Positions 6,030 to 35,525 of a stretch of DNA of 38,453 nt are shown here, piece by piece. The stretch is from NCBI GenBank assembly GCA_017940545.1, contig JAGAYI010000021.1, positions 1 to 38,453 of the forward strand, read 5' to 3'. The translations under genes and the position numbers were made by a program. Each line of letters opens with the position of its first letter. Position 1 is the stretch's first letter. The notes beneath the pieces are model-generated. The model ran no database searches and was not told the DNA's origin. It saw nothing but the letters and a program-made list of their open reading frames with translations. This stretch comes from Prevotella sp. (GTDB lineage Bacteria > Bacteroidota > Bacteroidia > Bacteroidales > Bacteroidaceae).

Positions 6030-6509
6030 ATGAAAAAAATCATGCAATGGATGTTCGCCGCCATCCTCACCATCTGCGGTACAACGTCAGCAAGCATTCT
6101 GCTCAGCTCCTGCAAGACTGCAGCCACCGCTGCCCAGACCCCGTCACAAGTAGTATCTACCGAACTCATACGCACCAGCCAGAGTTGGGACGGCGTAGAA
6201 CTGCCCGACTACCTGCAGGGACGCCCCGAACTGGTAGCTATGAAGTATGTGTTCCCCGCCGGACAAAAATTAGGATGGCACCACCACCCCGTCATGAACT
6301 ACGGCATACTGGCACAAGGCGAACTGACCATCATCGGTCAGGACGGAAAAGAAAAAGTGGTGCACGAGGGTGAAGCCGTCGTCGAAATGGTAAACACCAT
6401 CCACCACGGCGAGAACCGTGGCAAGAAGCCCGTCGTTCTATACATGTTCTACCTCGCGCAGAAGGGCATGCCGCTGGCCGTGCAGCACCCCGAAATTCCG
6501 TTAGAGTAA
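6030..6509 (+). CDS. Cupin-domain lipoprotein
   Basis: A 159-residue protein with a signal sequence and lipobox ILLSSC (Cys28), so it is probably anchored in the envelope. The mature part is a single small cupin barrel. Motif 1 is GWHHHPVMNYGILAQGEL, with a His cluster for a metal ion. Motif 2 includes GEAVVEMVNTIHHGEN with another His pair. These are the metal ligands expected of a cupin 2 protein; substrate and reaction are unknown. It lies 21 bases after the preA-like gene in the same direction and probably shares its transcript. Link to pyrimidine metabolism is inference from position only. Confidence 0.8.
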   Translation: MKKIMQWMFAAILTICGTTSASILLSSCKTAATAAQTPSQVVSTELIRTSQSWDGVELPDYLQGRPELVAMKYVFPAGQKLGWHHHPVMNYGILAQGELTIIGQDGKEKVVHEGEAVVEMVNTIHHGENRGKKPVVLYMFYLAQKGMPLAVQHPEIPLE

Positions 6510-6739: not shown

Positions 6740-6762
6740 ACAACCAGGAAACAACAGGTTTT

Positions 6763-6941
6763 CAGCGCCCGCTGCTCTTACTTTCACCGCCCGCTGCTCT
6801 TACTTTCAGCGGGCGGTGCTATTAGTTTCAGCGCCCGCTGAAACCCAGAGCCCCCGGCAGTTTTTCCCAGTTTCCCTTACTCAAACTCCCGGTTTCCCCG
6901 GCAGTTTCTCCCAGTTTCCCCGACACGGTTTCCCGAGTCAA
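6763..6941 (+). repeat. 22-bp phased repeat island, two sequence blocks
   Basis: Block one has units at 6763, 6785, 6807 and 6829, sharing CAGCGCCCGCTG or its variant CAGCGGGCGGTG and a TTTCA/TTTCC junction. Block two has units at 6854, 6876, 6898 and 6920, sharing CAGTTTyTCCCAGTTTCC. Both blocks use 22-bp units, with a 3-base slip between them (6851-6853). Block two contains GGTTTCCCCGGCA (from 6891), the reverse complement of a core in the array at 28327-28597. Confidence 0.85.
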
Positions 6942-25388: not shown

Positions 25389-25390
25389 AA

Positions 25391-25527
25391 GGAGTTAGGA
25401 GTTAGGAGTTAGGAGTTAGGAGTTAGGAATTAGGAGTTAGGAGTTACAATAAAAAAAGGAAGCCCACCACCGTGGTGAGCTTCTCTTTTTCCAACTCCTA
25501 ACTCCTAACTCCTAATTCCTAACTCTA
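25391..25527. repeat. Inverted heptad repeat filling a convergent intergenic gap
   Basis: Eight units of GGAGTTA (one GGAATTA) occupy 25391-25446; five units of AACTCCT and variants occupy 25493-25527 in reverse orientation. The arms abut the stop codons of the two converging genes (3 and 1 bases away). The spacer holds a bidirectional terminator. Confidence 0.9.
25459..25483. terminator. Bidirectional terminator between converging genes
   Basis: GAAGCCCACCA and TGGTGAGCTTC pair with one mismatch around CCG. Seven A precede and CTCTTTTT follows, so it can work for the LytTR gene and for the Ig-like protein gene. Confidence 0.85.
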
Positions 25528-25528
25528 A

Positions 25529-28183
25529 TTACTTTATGAACTTGCGGCCGTTCTGAATCACCATGCCCTTGTAGTTCTTCGTCACGCGGCGACCGCTCAG
25601 GTCGTAGGTGGGAGCCGACTCGTCGGTGTCCGTCTTGACGGCATTGATGCCCAGGGCTGAGCTTTCAACCAGAGCCACTTCCTTCACCGTCTTGCCGGGA
25701 GCGTCAATGCTTACGCCGAGGCTCTGCTTCAGTGTCTCGGCAGCCTCGTCGGTCTTGATGACGAAGCTGACGGTCTTGATGTCAGACGTTTCCTCAGCAA
25801 CAATCTCAAAGTCGGTGCCACAGGTCAGCATCTTCGGGCTGCTGGTAGTATCCAAGTACTTCAGCACCTCCTTGAGGCTTTCCTCGGGGCTGGCAATGGT
25901 CTCGGCGAACGTCACGCGGATGGCGGTGCCCTTCTTCACGCCGGCAAACTCGTCGTAGTTGGTGAAGTGGCACGGAGCAATGACCGGTGTGGGGTCGCTG
26001 GGACTGGTAATCCATACTGACTGGTCGCTGTATTCCTCAGGTGTGGGGGCAATCTCGATGGCGTTCATCTCGAAACCGTTACCTGCCACCTGCAGACCGT
26101 TCTTCTCGGTAATCGAGAGGATGTCGCCCGTCAGTACGAAATCTACCTCAATCAGGCTTCCGGCAGCACGGCGCGGTGCGGGCGGTGCGGGAGTCACGAC
26201 GCGCATTACGGAGCGTACGCCCTCTATCTCGCGGCCGTCGTAGGTCATGAGGCGAATCTTTGCGTTTTCGGTTGTCTTCGTTATTCTGAAGCGTATGCGG
26301 TCACCGGGTCTCGGCTTGTCTTTGAGCAACTCCTTCAGAGCTTCCTTCGTAATCTTGATGGGATTTTCGATGGCAATAGGCGTGTTGGTCCACCATACGG
26401 GCTTGGTTTCCTCCTCGTCGCTGCTACCACCTTCCCCTATCAGCTGAATCGTGATGCCGTAGTTGCCGTCAATCTTGATTTTATACGTTCCCCGGCCCAC
26501 AATCAACTGCGTGCCAAGCTGCTTTTGCATCTGCTTGCGCTCGCCACCAGGCGTCAGTTTGTCCGGTATATCACTTTCCACGGTTGCATAACGGTAGTTC
26601 GCGTTGAACGTATTCCAGTCTGCTGCCACCGGCACGTCGCTGACGGTGAAGTAGAAGTTCTCACTCTCAGAGATGATGTCCAGTTCGTAGTTGCCCTCTT
26701 CACTAACCTGCATCTTCTCCATCGTCGAGAGGTCCCACGAGTTGTTGTCGCCAATGATGAAGAGAGCATGCTTCCTGGTGGTTTCTACGGTAAGCGCCTT
26801 GCCTTCGGGCATCTGGGGGTCATAGATGAAGGTAACGTCATACAGGCCCGATTCCTTAAACTCATAAGTTCCCCAACCTGCTCCTTCTGCATAGGTAGTC
26901 TTGTTGGAAACGACCGACCAGCTGAATCCTGTTACTTCACCTTTTTCTACATAGACAGGAACGTCTGTACGTGTCAGCCTGTACTTGCCGTCATCACACG
27001 GCAGCATCTTTTCAGAGTCTTGCAGGTTTGAAAAACCGGTAAAGTTACCAAAGAGAGCTTTTTCTAATGATTTCTTTAATGAGGCAGCTGCTTCTGTATC
27101 ACCGGTTTGGCTCCATACATTACCCTGGATATGGTAAGATTTTTCATTAACAACCACCAAGTTGAAGGATTCTGCAATACCTGCATGTGTATCATCGCCA
27201 GGGAACCGTGCAGTAACTGGCGTTGAGCCGACCTTCTTCAGAATCAGTTGGTTGTTCGCCGGGTCATATTCAGCAATGTCGGTGTAGGTCACCGACCATT
27301 CTATGGGCGCATTCTGCAACACCTCGTCGCCAGCCGTAATCGTTACCGTAGGCAGGGCGAATGTGCGGTCGCCCAGTATGGCAGAAGCATTCTTAGGGCC
27401 GTTGATTTTTATTTTCGAGTTCTGCTTATAAACGGTTTCAACGGTAAGCTGTTTTTCGAATCCTGCATTAGGATCATACGTAAAGGTAATGTCATACTGT
27501 CCTGCCTTGTTGATGGGGAGCCAAGTATTATTTAGAGTATTATTTAGATAGTACTCGGCATACGTTTTATTAAATGCCAGGGCATAGGTTATTCCTACCC
27601 CGTCAACGCCCACGATGATGTGTTTGTAACTGAGCTTATATAAGCCCGTCGTTTCGTCGTAGTAAAATTCCTCTTTGCTAGTAAGGTCTTCAGGATATAT
27701 CTGAGCAGTAGCTGCGCGATTGAAGAGTTGCATACTGACGGAGTTCAACACCCCTTGATCTACTTGAGTGCCACTTTGGGCTGCCACGAATGCATAGAGA
27801 TGAACAGAAGAAATCTTCGATACGGTCAGTTCGAAGCTTGCAGAGCTGCTTTCGTAGCCGCCATTTCCCGGGAATGTTGCGGTAATGGTGGTAGTGCCCG
27901 GGCCCTTTATTGACAGTCCGTTAAACGAAGAAGCAACTTCTGCCACTTGAGTATTTGAGCTTGTCCACGTGACATAAGTGTTGGGCACTTCTTCATTGTT
28001 AGCATCAAGCACCTTAGCTGTCGGCAGGTCGTATGTATGCCTGTTCTCATATATGTTCTCGGAATATTCATCCAGGTCGAGTGACACCGTTGAAGCTGCC
28101 TTGGTGTCGTCAGCAAACATGCTACCTCCACACAGCATGGCGAGCACGCTCAGTAGCGAAAAGCGTAATAGTTTGTACTTCAT
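25529..28183 (-). CDS. Large secreted Ig-like repeat protein with C-terminal sorting-like tail
   Basis: An 884-residue protein with a signal peptide (MKYKLLRFSLLSVLAMLCGG, cleavage near 25). It contains a tandem duplication of about 220 residues: each copy (31-253 and 254-471) starts with an Ig-like domain of the Big type (TYVTWTSSNTQVAEV; APIEWSVTYTDIAEY) and ends with a matching module (GQYDITFTYDPNAGFEKQLTVET; GLYDVTFIYDPQMPEGKALTVET). A SusE/F-like segment follows (FIIGDNNSWDLSTM, about 475-580). The end, YDLSGRRVTKNYKGMVIQNG then RKFIK, is the tail common on exported Prevotella proteins and like a type IX sorting signal. Surface carbohydrate or protein binding is likely; ligand unknown. 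Confidence 0.8.
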   Translation of the reverse strand: MKYKLLRFSLLSVLAMLCGGSMFADDTKAASTVSLDLDEYSENIYENRHTYDLPTAKVLDANNEEVPNTYVTWTSSNTQVAEVASSFNGLSIKGPGTTTITATFPGNGGYESSSASFELTVSKISSVHLYAFVAAQSGTQVDQGVLNSVSMQLFNRAATAQIYPEDLTSKEEFYYDETTGLYKLSYKHIIVGVDGVGITYALAFNKTYAEYYLNNTLNNTWLPINKAGQYDITFTYDPNAGFEKQLTVETVYKQNSKIKINGPKNASAILGDRTFALPTVTITAGDEVLQNAPIEWSVTYTDIAEYDPANNQLILKKVGSTPVTARFPGDDTHAGIAESFNLVVVNEKSYHIQGNVWSQTGDTEAAASLKKSLEKALFGNFTGFSNLQDSEKMLPCDDGKYRLTRTDVPVYVEKGEVTGFSWSVVSNKTTYAEGAGWGTYEFKESGLYDVTFIYDPQMPEGKALTVETTRKHALFIIGDNNSWDLSTMEKMQVSEEGNYELDIISESENFYFTVSDVPVAADWNTFNANYRYATVESDIPDKLTPGGERKQMQKQLGTQLIVGRGTYKIKIDGNYGITIQLIGEGGSSDEEETKPVWWTNTPIAIENPIKITKEALKELLKDKPRPGDRIRFRITKTTENAKIRLMTYDGREIEGVRSVMRVVTPAPPAPRRAAGSLIEVDFVLTGDILSITEKNGLQVAGNGFEMNAIEIAPTPEEYSDQSVWITSPSDPTPVIAPCHFTNYDEFAGVKKGTAIRVTFAETIASPEESLKEVLKYLDTTSSPKMLTCGTDFEIVAEETSDIKTVSFVIKTDEAAETLKQSLGVSIDAPGKTVKEVALVESSALGINAVKTDTDESAPTYDLSGRRVTKNYKGMVIQNGRKFIK

Positions 28184-28256: not shown

Positions 28257-28288
28257 CAAATATACAAAATAAATGTGAAAGAGACAAA
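28257..28288 (-). promoter_or_regulatory. Promoter of the Ig-like protein gene
   Basis: On the minus strand TTTG (28285-28288), 20 bases, TATATTTG (28257-28264). The -7 element ends 74 bases before the ATG at 28183. Confidence 0.75.
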
Positions 28289-28326
28289 CTTTCCACCCGT
28301 TTTTTTCTATGCCGTTCTCTCCGACA

Positions 28327-28597
28327 GTCTATGCCGGGGAAACCTATCGTTTGTGCTGGGGAAACCTACAGTCTGTGCCGGGGAAACCAACATTTGACTA
28401 AAGTCAAACAATCATTTGACTGGAGTCGGACAATCGTTTGACTGAAGTCAAACAATCATTTGACTGAAGTCAAACGGTTGGAAAACCGTAGTCAAACGGT
28501 TGGAAAACCGTAGTCAAACGGTTGGAAAACCGTAGTCAAACGGTTGGAAAACTGTAGTCAAACGGTTGGAAAACTGGTGTCGGACGGCGAATTTTGC
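28327..28597 (+). repeat. 22-bp phased repeat island, three sequence blocks
   Basis: About twelve units of exactly 22 bp with no spacers. Block A (28327, 28349, 28371) shares TGCyGGGGAAACC. Block B (28393, 28415, 28437, part of 28459) has the palindrome TTTGACTnnAGTCAAA. Block C (28470, 28492, 28514, 28536, 28558) has the hairpin ACGGTTGGAAAACCGT. Through all blocks AAAC (or GGAC twice) recurs at 28340 and every 22 bases up to 28582. The rest of the 610-base gap holds only the two divergent promoters. Confidence 0.92.
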
Positions 28598-28726
28598 TTA
28601 CCGCTATCAGCAAGTTTCCTTAACTCTTTAGAAAGTTACTTCTCCATTTGTACCAACTTATTTTTTACGGTTACTGAATCCTGAAATCCCCAGATGACCT
28701 CGTTAGCAAAAAAATCATGAAGATTG

Positions 28727-28758
28727 TTTGGCTGTTTTGGATTTTCTGGTTAACTTTG
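28727..28758 (+). promoter_or_regulatory. Promoter of dsbD
   Basis: TTTG (28727-28730), 20 bases, TAACTTTG (28751-28758), 35 bases before the ATG. Confidence 0.75.
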
Positions 28759-28793: not shown

Positions 28794-30890
28794 ATGAAAC
28801 AACTGCGAAAGAGGACAGCTGCCGTGCTGACGTTGTGTCTGCTGACGCTGACGGCCCTGGCCCAGATGGCCACCCCCGTGCACTCGTCGGCCGAAATGAA
28901 GCAGCTCGGCGGCAACGAGGCCGAACTGCTGTTCCACCTGAAGATAGATGCCGGCTGGCACGTCTATTCGCCCGACGTGACGGGCGGCCCCATAGCGGCC
29001 ACGTTTAATGCCGACAAGATGGAAGGCGCCAAGGCGGTGGGCAGACTGAAAAGCCGCGGCAAGGAAATCAAGAAGTTCGACCGGCAGTTTGGCCAGGAGC
29101 TGCAGTATTTTGAAAACAGCGTGACCTTCGTGCAGAAGGTGCAGCTGACGGGTGGCAGCTACGACATTGACTGCTACTTGGAGTACGGTGCCTGCAACGA
29201 CCGCATGTGTCTGCCCCCCGGCGAGGTGACGCTGAAGGCGAAGGGAGAAGCCCCCAGCCCCGCCCAGGAGAAGCCGCTGAAGCAGGCTGCCGACAAGAAG
29301 GAAGCGGCGGACAAGGCGGTTGCAGGCAGAGATACCGTTGCCACGACAGCTGCTACAGACACTATTGCCGCCACGGCAGACACTACCGCCACGGCGACCG
29401 CAGCCAGTCCGGCGGCAGGTGACAGCCTCTGGGCCCCGGTGACTGACGAGCTGCGGGCCCTGGGCACGGCCGACGACCTGACCGACCACTCGCTGCTCTA
29501 CATTCTGCTGATGGGCTTTGTGGGCGGACTGCTGGCCGTGTGCATGCCCTGCATCTGGCCCATCATTCCCATGACCGTCAGCTTCTTCCTGAAGCGGGCC
29601 AAGAGCGACAAGCGCAAAGGCATTGGCGATGCGCTGACCTACGGCCTGAGCATCATCGTCATCTATCTGACGTTGGGACTGCTCGTGACGGCCCTCTTCG
29701 GCAGCGACACGCTGAACGCGCTATCGACGAATGCCGTCTTCAACATCTTCCTGTGCCTGCTGCTCGTGGTGTTCGCCCTGTCGTTCTTCGGCTGGTTCGA
29801 ACTGAAACTGCCCGAGAGCTGGTCGAACAAGGTAGATCATAAGAGTGACGAGTTATTCACCCTACACTCTACACTCTCCATCTTCCTCATGGCCTTCACG
29901 CTGGTGCTGGTCAGCTTCTCGTGCACGGCCCCCATCGTGGGCCTGCTGCTGGTAGAGACGGCCACCAGCGGCAACTGGCTGGCGCCTGCCTTAGGCATGC
30001 TGGGCTTTGCCGTGGCCCTGGCGCTGCCCTTCACGCTCTTCGCCCTGTTCCCCTCGTGGCTGAAACAGGCTCCGAAGTCGGGCTCCTGGATGAACACCAT
30101 CAAGGTGGTGCTGGGATTCATTGAGCTGGCCTTCGCCCTGAAGTTCTTCTCGGTAGCCGACCTGGCCTACGGTTGGCACCTGCTGGACCGCGAGGTGTTC
30201 CTCTCGCTGTGGATTGTCATCTTCGCGCTGCTGGGCGTCTATCTTGTCAGGAAGGCACCGCTGTTCGCTCGTGACGAAGAAACGCACGGCGACATGGAGC
30301 TGCACGCCTATTCAGCCTGGGGCAGCATAGGCGGGTCGGCCACGTTCCTGCTGGGCATTGCGTCGCTGGCCTTCGCCGTCTATATGGTGCCGGGCCTGTG
30401 GGGTGCTCCGTGCAAGGCGGTGAGTGCCTTTGCGCCGCCCATGAACACGCAGGACTTCAACCTGAACACGAAGACCGTTGAGGCACGGTTTACCGACTAC
30501 GAGGCGGGCATGGCCGCGGCGCGTGCCGAGGGGAAGCCCGTGCTGATAGACTTTACCGGCTTCGGCTGCGTGAACTGCCGCAAGATGGAGGCCGCCGTAT
30601 GGACTGACCCGCGCGTGGCAGAGAAACTGACGAAGGACTTTGTGCTCATATCGCTATACGTTGACGATAAGACCCCGCTCAGCGAGCCCTACGACGTGCC
30701 CGACGGCGAAGGCGGCACCCGGCGGCTGCGCACCGTGGGTGCCAAGTGGAGCTACCTGCAGAGCTCGAAGTTCGGGGCTAACGCCCAGCCGTTCTACGTC
30801 ATTACCGACGGCTACGGCAAGCCGCTGCGCGGCAGCCGCGCCTACGACGAGGACGTGGAGGCGTATCTCAGGTGGCTGAGCGGCGAGTAG
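28794..30890 (+). CDS. dsbD: Thiol:disulfide interchange protein DsbD
   Basis: A 698-residue DsbD-type protein carrying electrons from cytoplasmic thioredoxin to the periplasm. After a signal peptide, the N-terminal domain has C134 and C139 (GACNDRMCLPP). An Ala/Thr-rich linker (about 148-210) precedes the membrane core of about eight helices with C250 and C253 (CMPCIWP) and C377 (SFSCTAP). The C-terminal thioredoxin-like domain has C592-V-N-C595 (GFGCVNCRKME). The second transmembrane-core Cys and both outer domains are intact. The codons for LFTLHSTLS (29860-29880) contain a tandem heptad like the repeats elsewhere. It is strongly GC-rich. A barrel protein gene with its own promoter follows. 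Confidence 0.93.
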   Translation: MKQLRKRTAAVLTLCLLTLTALAQMATPVHSSAEMKQLGGNEAELLFHLKIDAGWHVYSPDVTGGPIAATFNADKMEGAKAVGRLKSRGKEIKKFDRQFGQELQYFENSVTFVQKVQLTGGSYDIDCYLEYGACNDRMCLPPGEVTLKAKGEAPSPAQEKPLKQAADKKEAADKAVAGRDTVATTAATDTIAATADTTATATAASPAAGDSLWAPVTDELRALGTADDLTDHSLLYILLMGFVGGLLAVCMPCIWPIIPMTVSFFLKRAKSDKRKGIGDALTYGLSIIVIYLTLGLLVTALFGSDTLNALSTNAVFNIFLCLLLVVFALSFFGWFELKLPESWSNKVDHKSDELFTLHSTLSIFLMAFTLVLVSFSCTAPIVGLLLVETATSGNWLAPALGMLGFAVALALPFTLFALFPSWLKQAPKSGSWMNTIKVVLGFIELAFALKFFSVADLAYGWHLLDREVFLSLWIVIFALLGVYLVRKAPLFARDEETHGDMELHAYSAWGSIGGSATFLLGIASLAFAVYMVPGLWGAPCKAVSAFAPPMNTQDFNLNTKTVEARFTDYEAGMAAARAEGKPVLIDFTGFGCVNCRKMEAAVWTDPRVAEKLTKDFVLISLYVDDKTPLSEPYDVPDGEGGTRRLRTVGAKWSYLQSSKFGANAQPFYVITDGYGKPLRGSRAYDEDVEAYLRWLSGE
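29842..29880 (+). repeat. Short heptad repeat inside dsbD
   Basis: CCTACACTCTACACTCTCC contains two and a half copies of a 7-base unit (CTACACT), with AGAGTG at 29842-29847 as a short opposite arm. It encodes part of the loop before a membrane helix, in frame. It matches the heptads of the dcp element in reverse complement. Confidence 0.45.
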
Positions 30891-33969: not shown

Positions 33970-35525
33970 CCCGCAACGAGAAGAAATATGCCGCACGGTA
34001 TCTGGAAGCATGGAACCGCTACGGCAACAACCTGCCCAACGAGGAGTATGACCGGCTGAGCCTGCTGCGCCGACAATTAGGCATCAGGCTGGCACGCGCA
34101 CAGCAGGTGGAACGCGACATCGTCATAGAGGCGGCAGGAGGAACCACACTGCCCCTGCGCAAGACGCAGCTGCTGAAAGGCGACGAGGCCAGCATGCGCT
34201 ACGACCTGACGACGCTCTCGTCGCCACTCGCCACGACACCCTACGACCAGATGCTGAGCGAGGTGGCACAGTATGAGGCAACCATCGACGAGATACTCAG
34301 CGAGGTGAGCGACGTGTCTGAAAAGATGGAAACCATCAAGAAACAGCTCATCAGCGTCAGCGGCAGCCTCATCAAGGAGAGCATACGGCTGATGCGGCGC
34401 AAGCACTACCACAGCGGCAAGTCGAAGACGGGACTCATCGTCAGCGCATCGGGAGCAGCACTGGGACTGGCAGCCTATGTTTTCCAGTCGTACCGGCAGC
34501 GCATCATCGAGAAGAAACGCTCAGAAAAGCTCGACGAGCTGCTGCTGAAGAAAAAGGAGATTGCCGAGGTGCGCCTGGAAACCATACAGCAGCTGCGCGA
34601 CAGCTTCAAGCGTACCATCGTGCCGCGCATGGCACAGCTCTACGACAAAGAGTTCAGGCAGGAGATAGCCATCGACGACCCCATACGCCAGCAGAAGGTG
34701 GACTCCTTCAGGCGCGACTTCGTGCTGGCGGTCAAGACGCGATACCTGGAAGCCATACTCGACTACGTGGTGGCCGAGATGCAGTCGTGGCAGCAGTCGA
34801 AGCAGCACTCACAGCTGCCACGTCCCGACATCAACAAGACCATTGACGAGGAACTCATGACGTGGCCCAAGAAACTCGACATGACACGCGACGACGGCAG
34901 CGACTGGGACGACATGCTCAGCGACTACATCAGCCAGCCGCGAAAGGCATACCCCTACCCCATCTACCTCATGCTGAGCGACCCCTACATGCTGCGCACC
35001 TACGTGGGACTCGACATACAGTCGGCCAGCAACGCATCAGAGCCACTGCTGCAATTGGCATACAAGGAGGACGAACACCACATCAGGGTGACAACACCCG
35101 CACAGCAGACCGCGGCCGACGCACAGCAAGCCACAGCCGACGCACAGCAAGCCACAGCCGACGCACAACAGGCCAGCATTCCCGTGCAGCACATTCTGGA
35201 GCAGAACCCCTACTACCGCGACTGCGTGCGCATGCTCGACGACAGCCATGTGCCGTCGCCCAAGGGCTTCGGCTGGCGCGACGCACTGATAACCGCCCTC
35301 TACGTCATGGTACTCCTGGCATTAGCCTGCCTGATATGGCAGACCGACGGCCTGCTGTTCACCGTGCTCACCGTCATCTACTGCATCAGCGTGCCGTTCA
35401 CCGTGCTGCCCGTCACCGAGAACCTGCCCTACGTCAGGGAGGAGATTCGCTACGAGGAAATGCTGGAAGCCATCAAGCGGCGTGAAAGCGTGATAGCCAA
35501 AAAGTATAACAAGATAGTTATTTAA
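33966..35525 (+). CDS. Coiled-coil membrane protein of unknown function
   Basis: A 519-residue protein that I do not recognise. Residues 1-150 are helical and charged, with a coiled coil around 95-145 (VAQYEATIDEILSEVSDVSE). A Gly/Ala-rich hydrophobic segment lies at 156-173, then a long charged helical region with KKxRSEKLDELLLKKKEIAE. A tandem ADAQQAT linker lies at about 382-402, and two membrane helices near 439-458 and 463-480 precede a basic tail. The gene overlaps the SulP stop by four bases, so the products are probably made together. A scaffold or regulator of the transporter is an inference from coupling. Confidence 0.75.
   Translation: MTRNEKKYAARYLEAWNRYGNNLPNEEYDRLSLLRRQLGIRLARAQQVERDIVIEAAGGTTLPLRKTQLLKGDEASMRYDLTTLSSPLATTPYDQMLSEVAQYEATIDEILSEVSDVSEKMETIKKQLISVSGSLIKESIRLMRRKHYHSGKSKTGLIVSASGAALGLAAYVFQSYRQRIIEKKRSEKLDELLLKKKEIAEVRLETIQQLRDSFKRTIVPRMAQLYDKEFRQEIAIDDPIRQQKVDSFRRDFVLAVKTRYLEAILDYVVAEMQSWQQSKQHSQLPRPDINKTIDEELMTWPKKLDMTRDDGSDWDDMLSDYISQPRKAYPYPIYLMLSDPYMLRTYVGLDIQSASNASEPLLQLAYKEDEHHIRVTTPAQQTAADAQQATADAQQATADAQQASIPVQHILEQNPYYRDCVRMLDDSHVPSPKGFGWRDALITALYVMVLLALACLIWQTDGLLFTVLTVIYCISVPFTVLPVTENLPYVREEIRYEEMLEAIKRRESVIAKKYNKIVI
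35115..35177 (+). repeat. Three 21-bp tandem repeats in the coding frame
   Basis: Units at 35115, 35136 and 35157 begin GCCGACGCACA and encode ADAQQAT. The unit is a multiple of three, so copy number can change without a frameshift. Confidence 0.85.

Follow-up and report, generated by a model that had tools for sequence, protein, structure and literature searches.

A dispersed modular intergenic element with 22-bp units in a Prevotella genome

The locus and its paralogous copies

The window analysed here is a stretch of 38,453 nucleotides, positions 1 to 38,453 of contig JAGAYI010000021.1 of Prevotella sp. (assembly GCA_017940545.1). The element under study sits in the gap between two divergent genes. 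The protein on the left appears by eye to be secreted and Ig-like, and the one on the right we take to be DsbD-like (Table 1). Boxes of the TAnnTTTG type were recognised by eye on either side of the element, at 28257-28264 and 28751-28758. These presumably represent the promoter consensus and belong to the two divergent genes; because they flank the element, it may lie between two promoters.

Table 1. Coordinates of the element, its parts and its two neighbouring genes in the window
Feature	Position	Strand	Basis or remark
Left neighbour gene, 884 aa, secreted and Ig-like by eye	25529..28183	-	ORF list; divergent
Whole element copy	28311..28597	+	Aligns with paralogues at four other loci in this genome (C10, C30, C16, C22); first detected by BLAST
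Left terminus, GCCGTTCTCTCCGAC	28311-28325	+	
Block A, leader units of GCCGGGGAAACCTA type, 22-bp period	28318..28383	+	Read, TRF, aligned with other copies
Block B, four middle units of AAACAATCATTTGACTGAAGTC type, dyad TTTGACTnnAGTCAAA	28384..28471	+	Read, TRF, copy alignment
Block C, five tail units AAACGGTTGGAAAACCGTAGTC, dyad ACGGTTnnnnAACCGT	28472..28581	+	
Right terminus, GTCGGACGGCGAATTTTGC	28579-28597	+	
Right neighbour gene, 698 aa, presumed DsbD-like	28794..30890	+	ORF list; divergent

The 22-bp array is real. The tetranucleotide AAAC occurs at 28340, 28362, 28384, 28406, 28450, 28472, 28494, 28516, 28538 and 28560, with GGAC at 28428 and 28582, exactly where an earlier note on this DNA had placed them, as both reading and recomputation confirm. 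The tandem period of 22 bp that it described was recovered independently by TRF, which reports period 22 at 28324-28392, 28384-28475 and 28468-28574. A single phase modulo 22 holds all ten AAAC, against a maximum of three in 20,000 mononucleotide shuffles of 28318-28600. A second AAAC series, 11 bp off phase, runs through block C (28483, 28505, 28527, 28549 and 28571). By eye, the dyads reported for each unit of blocks B and C can be recognised. To call the three blocks unrelated was an overstatement, as 12 of 22 positions are identical between the consensus sequences of B and C (with AGTCAAAC in common), 8 between those of A and B, and 6 between those of A and C. The first unit of block B is an A/B hybrid. 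Adjacent units of block C are identical at 22, 22, 21 and 20 of 22 positions.

A BLAST search with the array found further places in the same genome, on contigs C10, C30, C16 and C22. When the copies are written in rows of 22 bp and aligned, they follow a single order of leader (A), middle (B) and tail (C), and the homologous element spans approximately 28311-28597, slightly more than the array as first noted (28327 to 28597). The copies differ in which part is expanded. Where the window copy has its five tail units, those on C30 and C16 have a single related one. The middle is expanded in C10, whose tail-like stretch is shorter, and the first leader unit is expanded in C30; C22 aligns over A and B only, with the tail absent. 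The ends, GCCGT...CCGAC and GTCGGACGGC, are short, weakly inverted and common to most copies, and no target-site duplication was recognised by eye at the aligned copies.

The earlier note had concluded that at this locus one sequence is replaced by another with the spacing held. The four aligned paralogues do not bear this out. Because the same A-B-C order recurs across the copies, the shared phase of the blocks is inherited from one composite element, and the apparent replacement consists of modules plus local tandem expansion, block C being a tandem expansion of the tail unit. The phase does hold through the window copy, as was claimed, but the copies in C30 (L003) and C16 (L004) contain 23-bp steps, where an extra base falls in units with a dyad core lengthened by one base; the 22-bp phase is therefore not absolute. 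The sequence at 28311-28597 represents a single copy of an intergenic element that is modular, non-coding and dispersed, here with its tail amplified to five units.

The same genome holds further arrays. The pattern (AAAC N18)x4 gives 23 forward and 15 reverse matches at 17 separate places, which fall into several unit families. The control for this pattern was its reversal, which also finds 22-bp arrays, gives higher counts than the forward pattern in several genomes, and so provides no null for the periodicity. In 260 kb of C30 and C16, two contigs chosen for their length and their BLAST matches, non-coding regions with a match of at least 60% in 66 bp were found 10 times at lag 22, four times at lag 44 and once at lag 26, with no other lag between 10 and 50; at 55% match, other lags turn up once or twice. 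Only 29 of 369 pairs of arrays in this genome agree at 15 or more of 22 positions, so that several unlike unit families are present, and one sequence-specific protein would not read them all.

Other repeats were seen in the window. A second composite 22-bp array lies at approximately 6740-6938, with GC-rich CAGCGCCCGCTG units followed by GTTTCCCCGGCAGTTTCTCCC units, near a tRNA and an SRP RNA gene; similar composites occur on other contigs (L027, L097, L102, L105 and L107). Two mutually inverted heptamer arrays, (AGGAGTT)x8.1 at 25390-25446 and (AACTCCT)x4.7 at 25493-25525, occupy the gap between two convergent genes, and a 21-bp tandem repeat of 3.7 copies is found at 35099-35175.

Distribution in related genomes

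The earlier note had suggested a search of related genomes for 22-bp autocorrelation, and this did reveal lag-22 non-coding runs, with other unit sequences. The pattern (AAAC N18)x4 is present in 57 of 100 genomes of the genus and in 30 of 247 genomes of the order (the own genome included in both), in the latter mostly as one or two matches, with a few rich genomes. Eighty loci from named relatives were fetched via the DsbD-like protein, and were therefore not chosen for arrays. Their non-coding regions gave lag 22 in 47 cases, 44 in 26, 21 in 19, 14 in 18 and 23 in 11, and a lag-22 region is present in 35 of the 80, including the cultured species Prevotella histicola, P. pallens, Hoylesella enoeca and Hallella bergensis. 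The stretches from Bacteroides fragilis and B. fluxus have no lag-22 regions. A random sample of 20 further Prevotella-group genomes, taken as stretches of which some were very short, gave a weaker signal than the named loci: lag 22 accounts for 6 regions in 4 genomes and is not the top lag (lag 14 has 9, 21 has 7 and 28 has 6). Prevotella-group stretches often show lags of 14, 21 and 28, and arrays of heptamers can give rise to lags of 14, 21, 28 and 35.

In other families of Bacteroidales (20 genomes, again as stretches, some very short), a single lag-22 region was found in 269 kb. Genomes G288 and G304 have periods of 20-23, and G304 also 10, 14 and 30; three G304 loci (L191, L192 and L194) carry intergenic arrays of 20 bp (10 bp) of CTCATAAGAA type. 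Searches of plasmids and phages gave no match to the window array. Of 80 loci from viral contigs, all picked from among the matches listed for the AAAC pattern, 66 have a lag-22 array, many of them coding or plain 11-bp repeats. One viral contig, L312, has 22-bp AAAACCATAGGTTT-type units at 6050-6163, similar to one unit family of the own genome. Among the relatives, the 22-bp array is a widespread but patchy trait.

Unit sequences differ between species and are often common to several loci within one. Pairs of array consensus sequences agree at 15 or more of 22 positions in 65% of 1365 comparisons within genomes, a figure dominated by G058 and G017, and in 7% of 9945 between genomes. Block B was found in 7 of 397 other genomes of the genus (E<=1e-8), beside other block types; in G056 it adjoins leader-like units that resemble those of C22.

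The DsbD-like protein has matches in 367 of 398 genomes of the genus, and the gap next to its gene was compared at loci from 30 of the 367, the window (L128, with its non-coding lag-22 array) included. At L130, from genome G453, an array occupies the orthologous gap, which as in the window lies between a gene whose product starts MKYKLLR and the DsbD-like gene, and it is a 22-bp array of unrelated units. In L153 and L155 the lag-22 regions are on the other side or elsewhere, and the remaining 26 of the 30 loci have no lag-22 array. The comparison of orthologous gaps put forward in the earlier note thus yields one gap with a 22-bp array of unrelated units, but this is a single comparison, the neighbours differing in most relatives. 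The G453 gap also holds two small ORFs (L130, 2680-3281), which by eye resemble an antitoxin and a RelE/ParE-like toxin.

A further comparison is given by G058 and L218, whose aligned blocks are 82-87% identical. An array upstream of the DsbD-like gene aligns between them without gaps, its units being identical at 13, 13, 14 and 19 of 22 positions, and its flanks cannot be aligned. Another G058 array was not found behind the same gene in L218 (approximately 85% identity), which is one case of presence and absence between related species.

Spacing and symmetry of the units

Genome G058 is rich in arrays, with 40 in 333 kb, of which the array caller assigns exactly four units to 26. Several types of end flank the same kind of core. 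A site scan with no spacing rule found 128 neighbour pairs within 17-30 bp, of which 126 are spaced at 22 bp, one at 21 and one at 17, with spacer columns that hold only 0.16-1.15 bits. The likeness of units within an array is mostly no higher than between arrays, with a weak excess for units 1-4 (z 2.7) and 3-4 (z 2.2), and recent duplication therefore does not explain the spacing. In many cases the units alternate in orientation, their core bases being matched (FRFR in 8 of 40), and unit pairs 1-2 (z 2.5) and 3-4 (z 2.0) are complementary above shuffles. The type I elements keep their whole length, at 222-223 nt in 7 of 10, so that freedom from indels extends beyond the array.

A dyad within each unit is much more frequent in 22-bp arrays than in other repeats. 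By column permutation (p<=0.05) it is present in 87 of 130 lag-22 arrays and in 8 of 107 repeats of other periods. The difference is large despite the limits of the sample, in which coding repeats were kept in both sets, a control repeat may consist of just two copies, and as many as three G058 arrays are counted twice through the named set. The positive arrays are distributed unevenly: 30 of 35 in G058, 37 of 48 in the named set, 7 of 13 in G158, 12 of 28 in the own genome and 1 of 6 in G024. Unlike dyads are not enriched at 22 bp apart (5 pairs, with a background of 4.4 in each bin), and a lattice common to unlike dyads thus has no statistical support at that distance. One case of unlike dyads exactly 22 bp apart was seen by eye, in L282. 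The excess of unlike dyads at 11, 33 and 55 bp is what would be expected from the period combined with mirror symmetry. In most sets, though not in G158, the content of A/T has an 11-bp component (z 12.6 in G058, 4.2 in the named loci, 4.1 in the own genome, 2.2 in G017, 1.8 in G024 and -0.7 in G158), and in several sets the 5.5-bp component is stronger.

The dyads could be a property of the DNA or of an RNA transcribed from it. In RNA stems, G-U pairs should be accepted much more readily than A-C. Across 39 arrays between co-directional genes, read in gene sense, the mismatched dyad pairs comprise 122 G-T and 130 A-C, with more G-T in 16 arrays and more A-C in 19, arrays of one family not being independent. 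This absence of a G-T excess favours a DNA dyad over RNA hairpins, and it weakens the chain of RNA hairpins envisaged in the earlier note. Arrays are also found in all types of gap. Of 137 that could be placed, 70 lie in tandem, 38 in convergent and 29 in divergent gaps (the sets include stretches selected for their arrays, namely G017, part of G158 and some of those from the own genome), the gaps of at least 250 bp numbering 239, 73 and 108 respectively; convergent gaps are somewhat favoured. An apparent bias in G058, where a crude gene call put 0 arrays in 19 divergent gaps, disappeared once genes were scored by codon use, with 9 arrays in divergent gaps, 20 of which reach 250 bp. The lack of a wobble bias and the presence of arrays in all gap types together point to a symmetry of double-stranded DNA.

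Possible origins and comparison with known systems

Twenty-two base pairs correspond to two turns of slightly underwound DNA. On the basis of these observations, we propose that the element is a modular, dispersed one on a 22-bp lattice, with a DNA dyad in many of its units, and forms a phased array of dimer sites on DNA, a reading to which we give an even chance of being correct. The lattice would be kept by a dimeric DNA-binding protein, or by an array of proteins, binding one dyad per two helical turns on one face of DNA that would be slightly underwound. Copies would have dispersed through mobilisation in trans or through recombination; in the window copy the tail unit was amplified in tandem to five. 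A protein array on one face of the DNA, as the earlier note conceived it, is possible, and the recurrence of this spacing in relatives with very different sequences hints at a reader of DNA geometry. The architecture of 22 bp with small dyads described there holds up and has counterparts with other units in relatives and in one orthologous gap; replacement at this locus is not supported, and RNA hairpins are disfavoured. Against the phased array of dimer sites are the unlike unit families, the 23-bp steps, the lack of enrichment of unlike dyads at 22 bp, the weaker random sample and the constancy of whole length in G058, together with the dyad test, which only 12 of 28 own-genome and 1 of 6 G024 arrays pass.

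A wider and more tentative form of this proposal, which we hold to be rather doubtful, is that Bacteroidaceae have an intergenic class that keeps chiefly its geometry, a dyad per 22 bp, with unit sequences that change from one genome to another and also inside a single genome. A protein array of the host would then maintain the class by reading the two-turn phasing more than the sequence, or the reader would evolve fast, and the class would amount to a hitherto undescribed layer of regulation or chromosome organisation. Sequence is the usual basis for grouping bacterial intergenic repeats. Here the common trait appears to be spacing and symmetry, with the sequence free to change, which is unusual. 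If a protein reads the lattice, the arrays would represent a novel type of regulatory or nucleoid site in a dominant family of the gut; even if there is no reader, the elements make up a genome-wide class of repeats that searches by sequence are prone to overlook.

The main rival is a selfish dispersed repeat of the BOX or MITE kind with an internal minisatellite, whose period was inherited and homogenised with no protein reading it. We consider this a serious alternative, if a less probable one. It would explain why ends and unit order are common to five loci (C22 without tail), and it fits with growth by tandem duplication, with the occupation of all gap types, and with the G058 array not found behind the same gene in a relative of approximately 85% identity. 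It is less easily reconciled with the recurrence of period 22 with unrelated units in many species, with the far higher frequency of dyads in 22-bp arrays than in repeats of other periods, or with G058, where the spacing is locked while the spacers diverge and the units are not homogenised; nor was a target-site duplication or a cognate transposase identified.

The remaining explanations are much weaker. A chain of RNA hairpins, acting as a terminator, stabiliser or processing array, is improbable. Ten G058 elements do fold, with minimum free energies of -60.9 to -100.6 kcal/mol on the forward strand (without a shuffle control), and the partial complementarity of neighbouring units noted above is in its favour. 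However, G-U is not above A-C in the sense of the flanking genes, the strand bias of folding is inconsistent (mean difference -6.5, SD 12.3, n=10), 29 of the 137 placed arrays and the window array itself are in divergent gaps, and Rfam reports only two tRNAs and the SRP RNA over the window, with four sub-threshold hits to the array and none at gathering score. Ordinary tandem duplication in place, with the phase kept by chance, is more improbable still: it would suit the nearly perfect block C, but the order A-B is found again at four further loci, and for blocks A and B it is refuted by the paralogous copies. Least probable of all is a REP/REPIN mobilised by a Y1 (RAYT) transposase, since, for all that these are intergenic palindromes in many copies and PF01797 exceeds its cut-off in the own genome (1) and in the array-rich G006 (1), G050 (4) and G089 (1), it fails as a general explanation on five array-rich genomes without a PF01797 match (G058, G017, G024, G003 and G026, of which G024 is a single contig of 99% completeness).

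The proposed phased array of dimer sites can be compared with several known systems. Plasmid iterons and centromere-like arrays are evenly phased sites under a protein array, at few loci per replicon and with one sequence, and BldC is reportedly bound to direct repeats. The even phasing is similar here, but there are dozens of loci and several sequences, the protein array would be a putative one, and the immediate neighbours of the window array are the 884-residue and the DsbD-like proteins. BOX elements of Streptococcus pneumoniae are intergenic and modular as well, with an end, a repeated middle and a second end, but they belong to another phylum and have a 45-bp middle unit, and we know of no two-turn lattice for them.

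Among the titles listed from the open-access literature there is no description of such a class, and the nearest are BrickBuilt, PINSR and the TAACTGA arrays. The TAACTGA direct repeats likewise form many intergenic sets per genome, some of them in Bacteroidetes, but they use one fixed heptamer and are mostly located just upstream of putative start codons, and the description in the abstract has no dyad lattice (PMC4679880). PINSR of Prevotella intermedia and P. nigrescens is, like the present element, a Prevotella repeat that is intergenic, multi-copy (177 and 184 copies) and probably non-coding; it is described as lacking terminal inverted repeats and as amplified before the two strains split, and its single consensus, compared here by description, is 188 bp long (PMC4755523). 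BrickBuilt, a MITE of Porphyromonas gingivalis and P. gulae with 19 copies in ATCC 33277, is also intergenic and modular, with a leader and a tail (up to 285 and 318 nt) around tandem short units that vary in number and are predicted to form stem-loops (PMC4596501). It differs in the great length of its leader and tail, in its 23-nt unit, the period here being 22 with a few 23-bp steps in two copies, and in its 12-nt IS5-type inverted ends such as GAGACCTTTGCA, which by eye are unlike the short ends GCCGTTCTCTCCGAC and GTCGGACGGC (PMC4596501). From what is described of the two, the element is nearest to BrickBuilt and PINSR, neither of which can be claimed as the same family.
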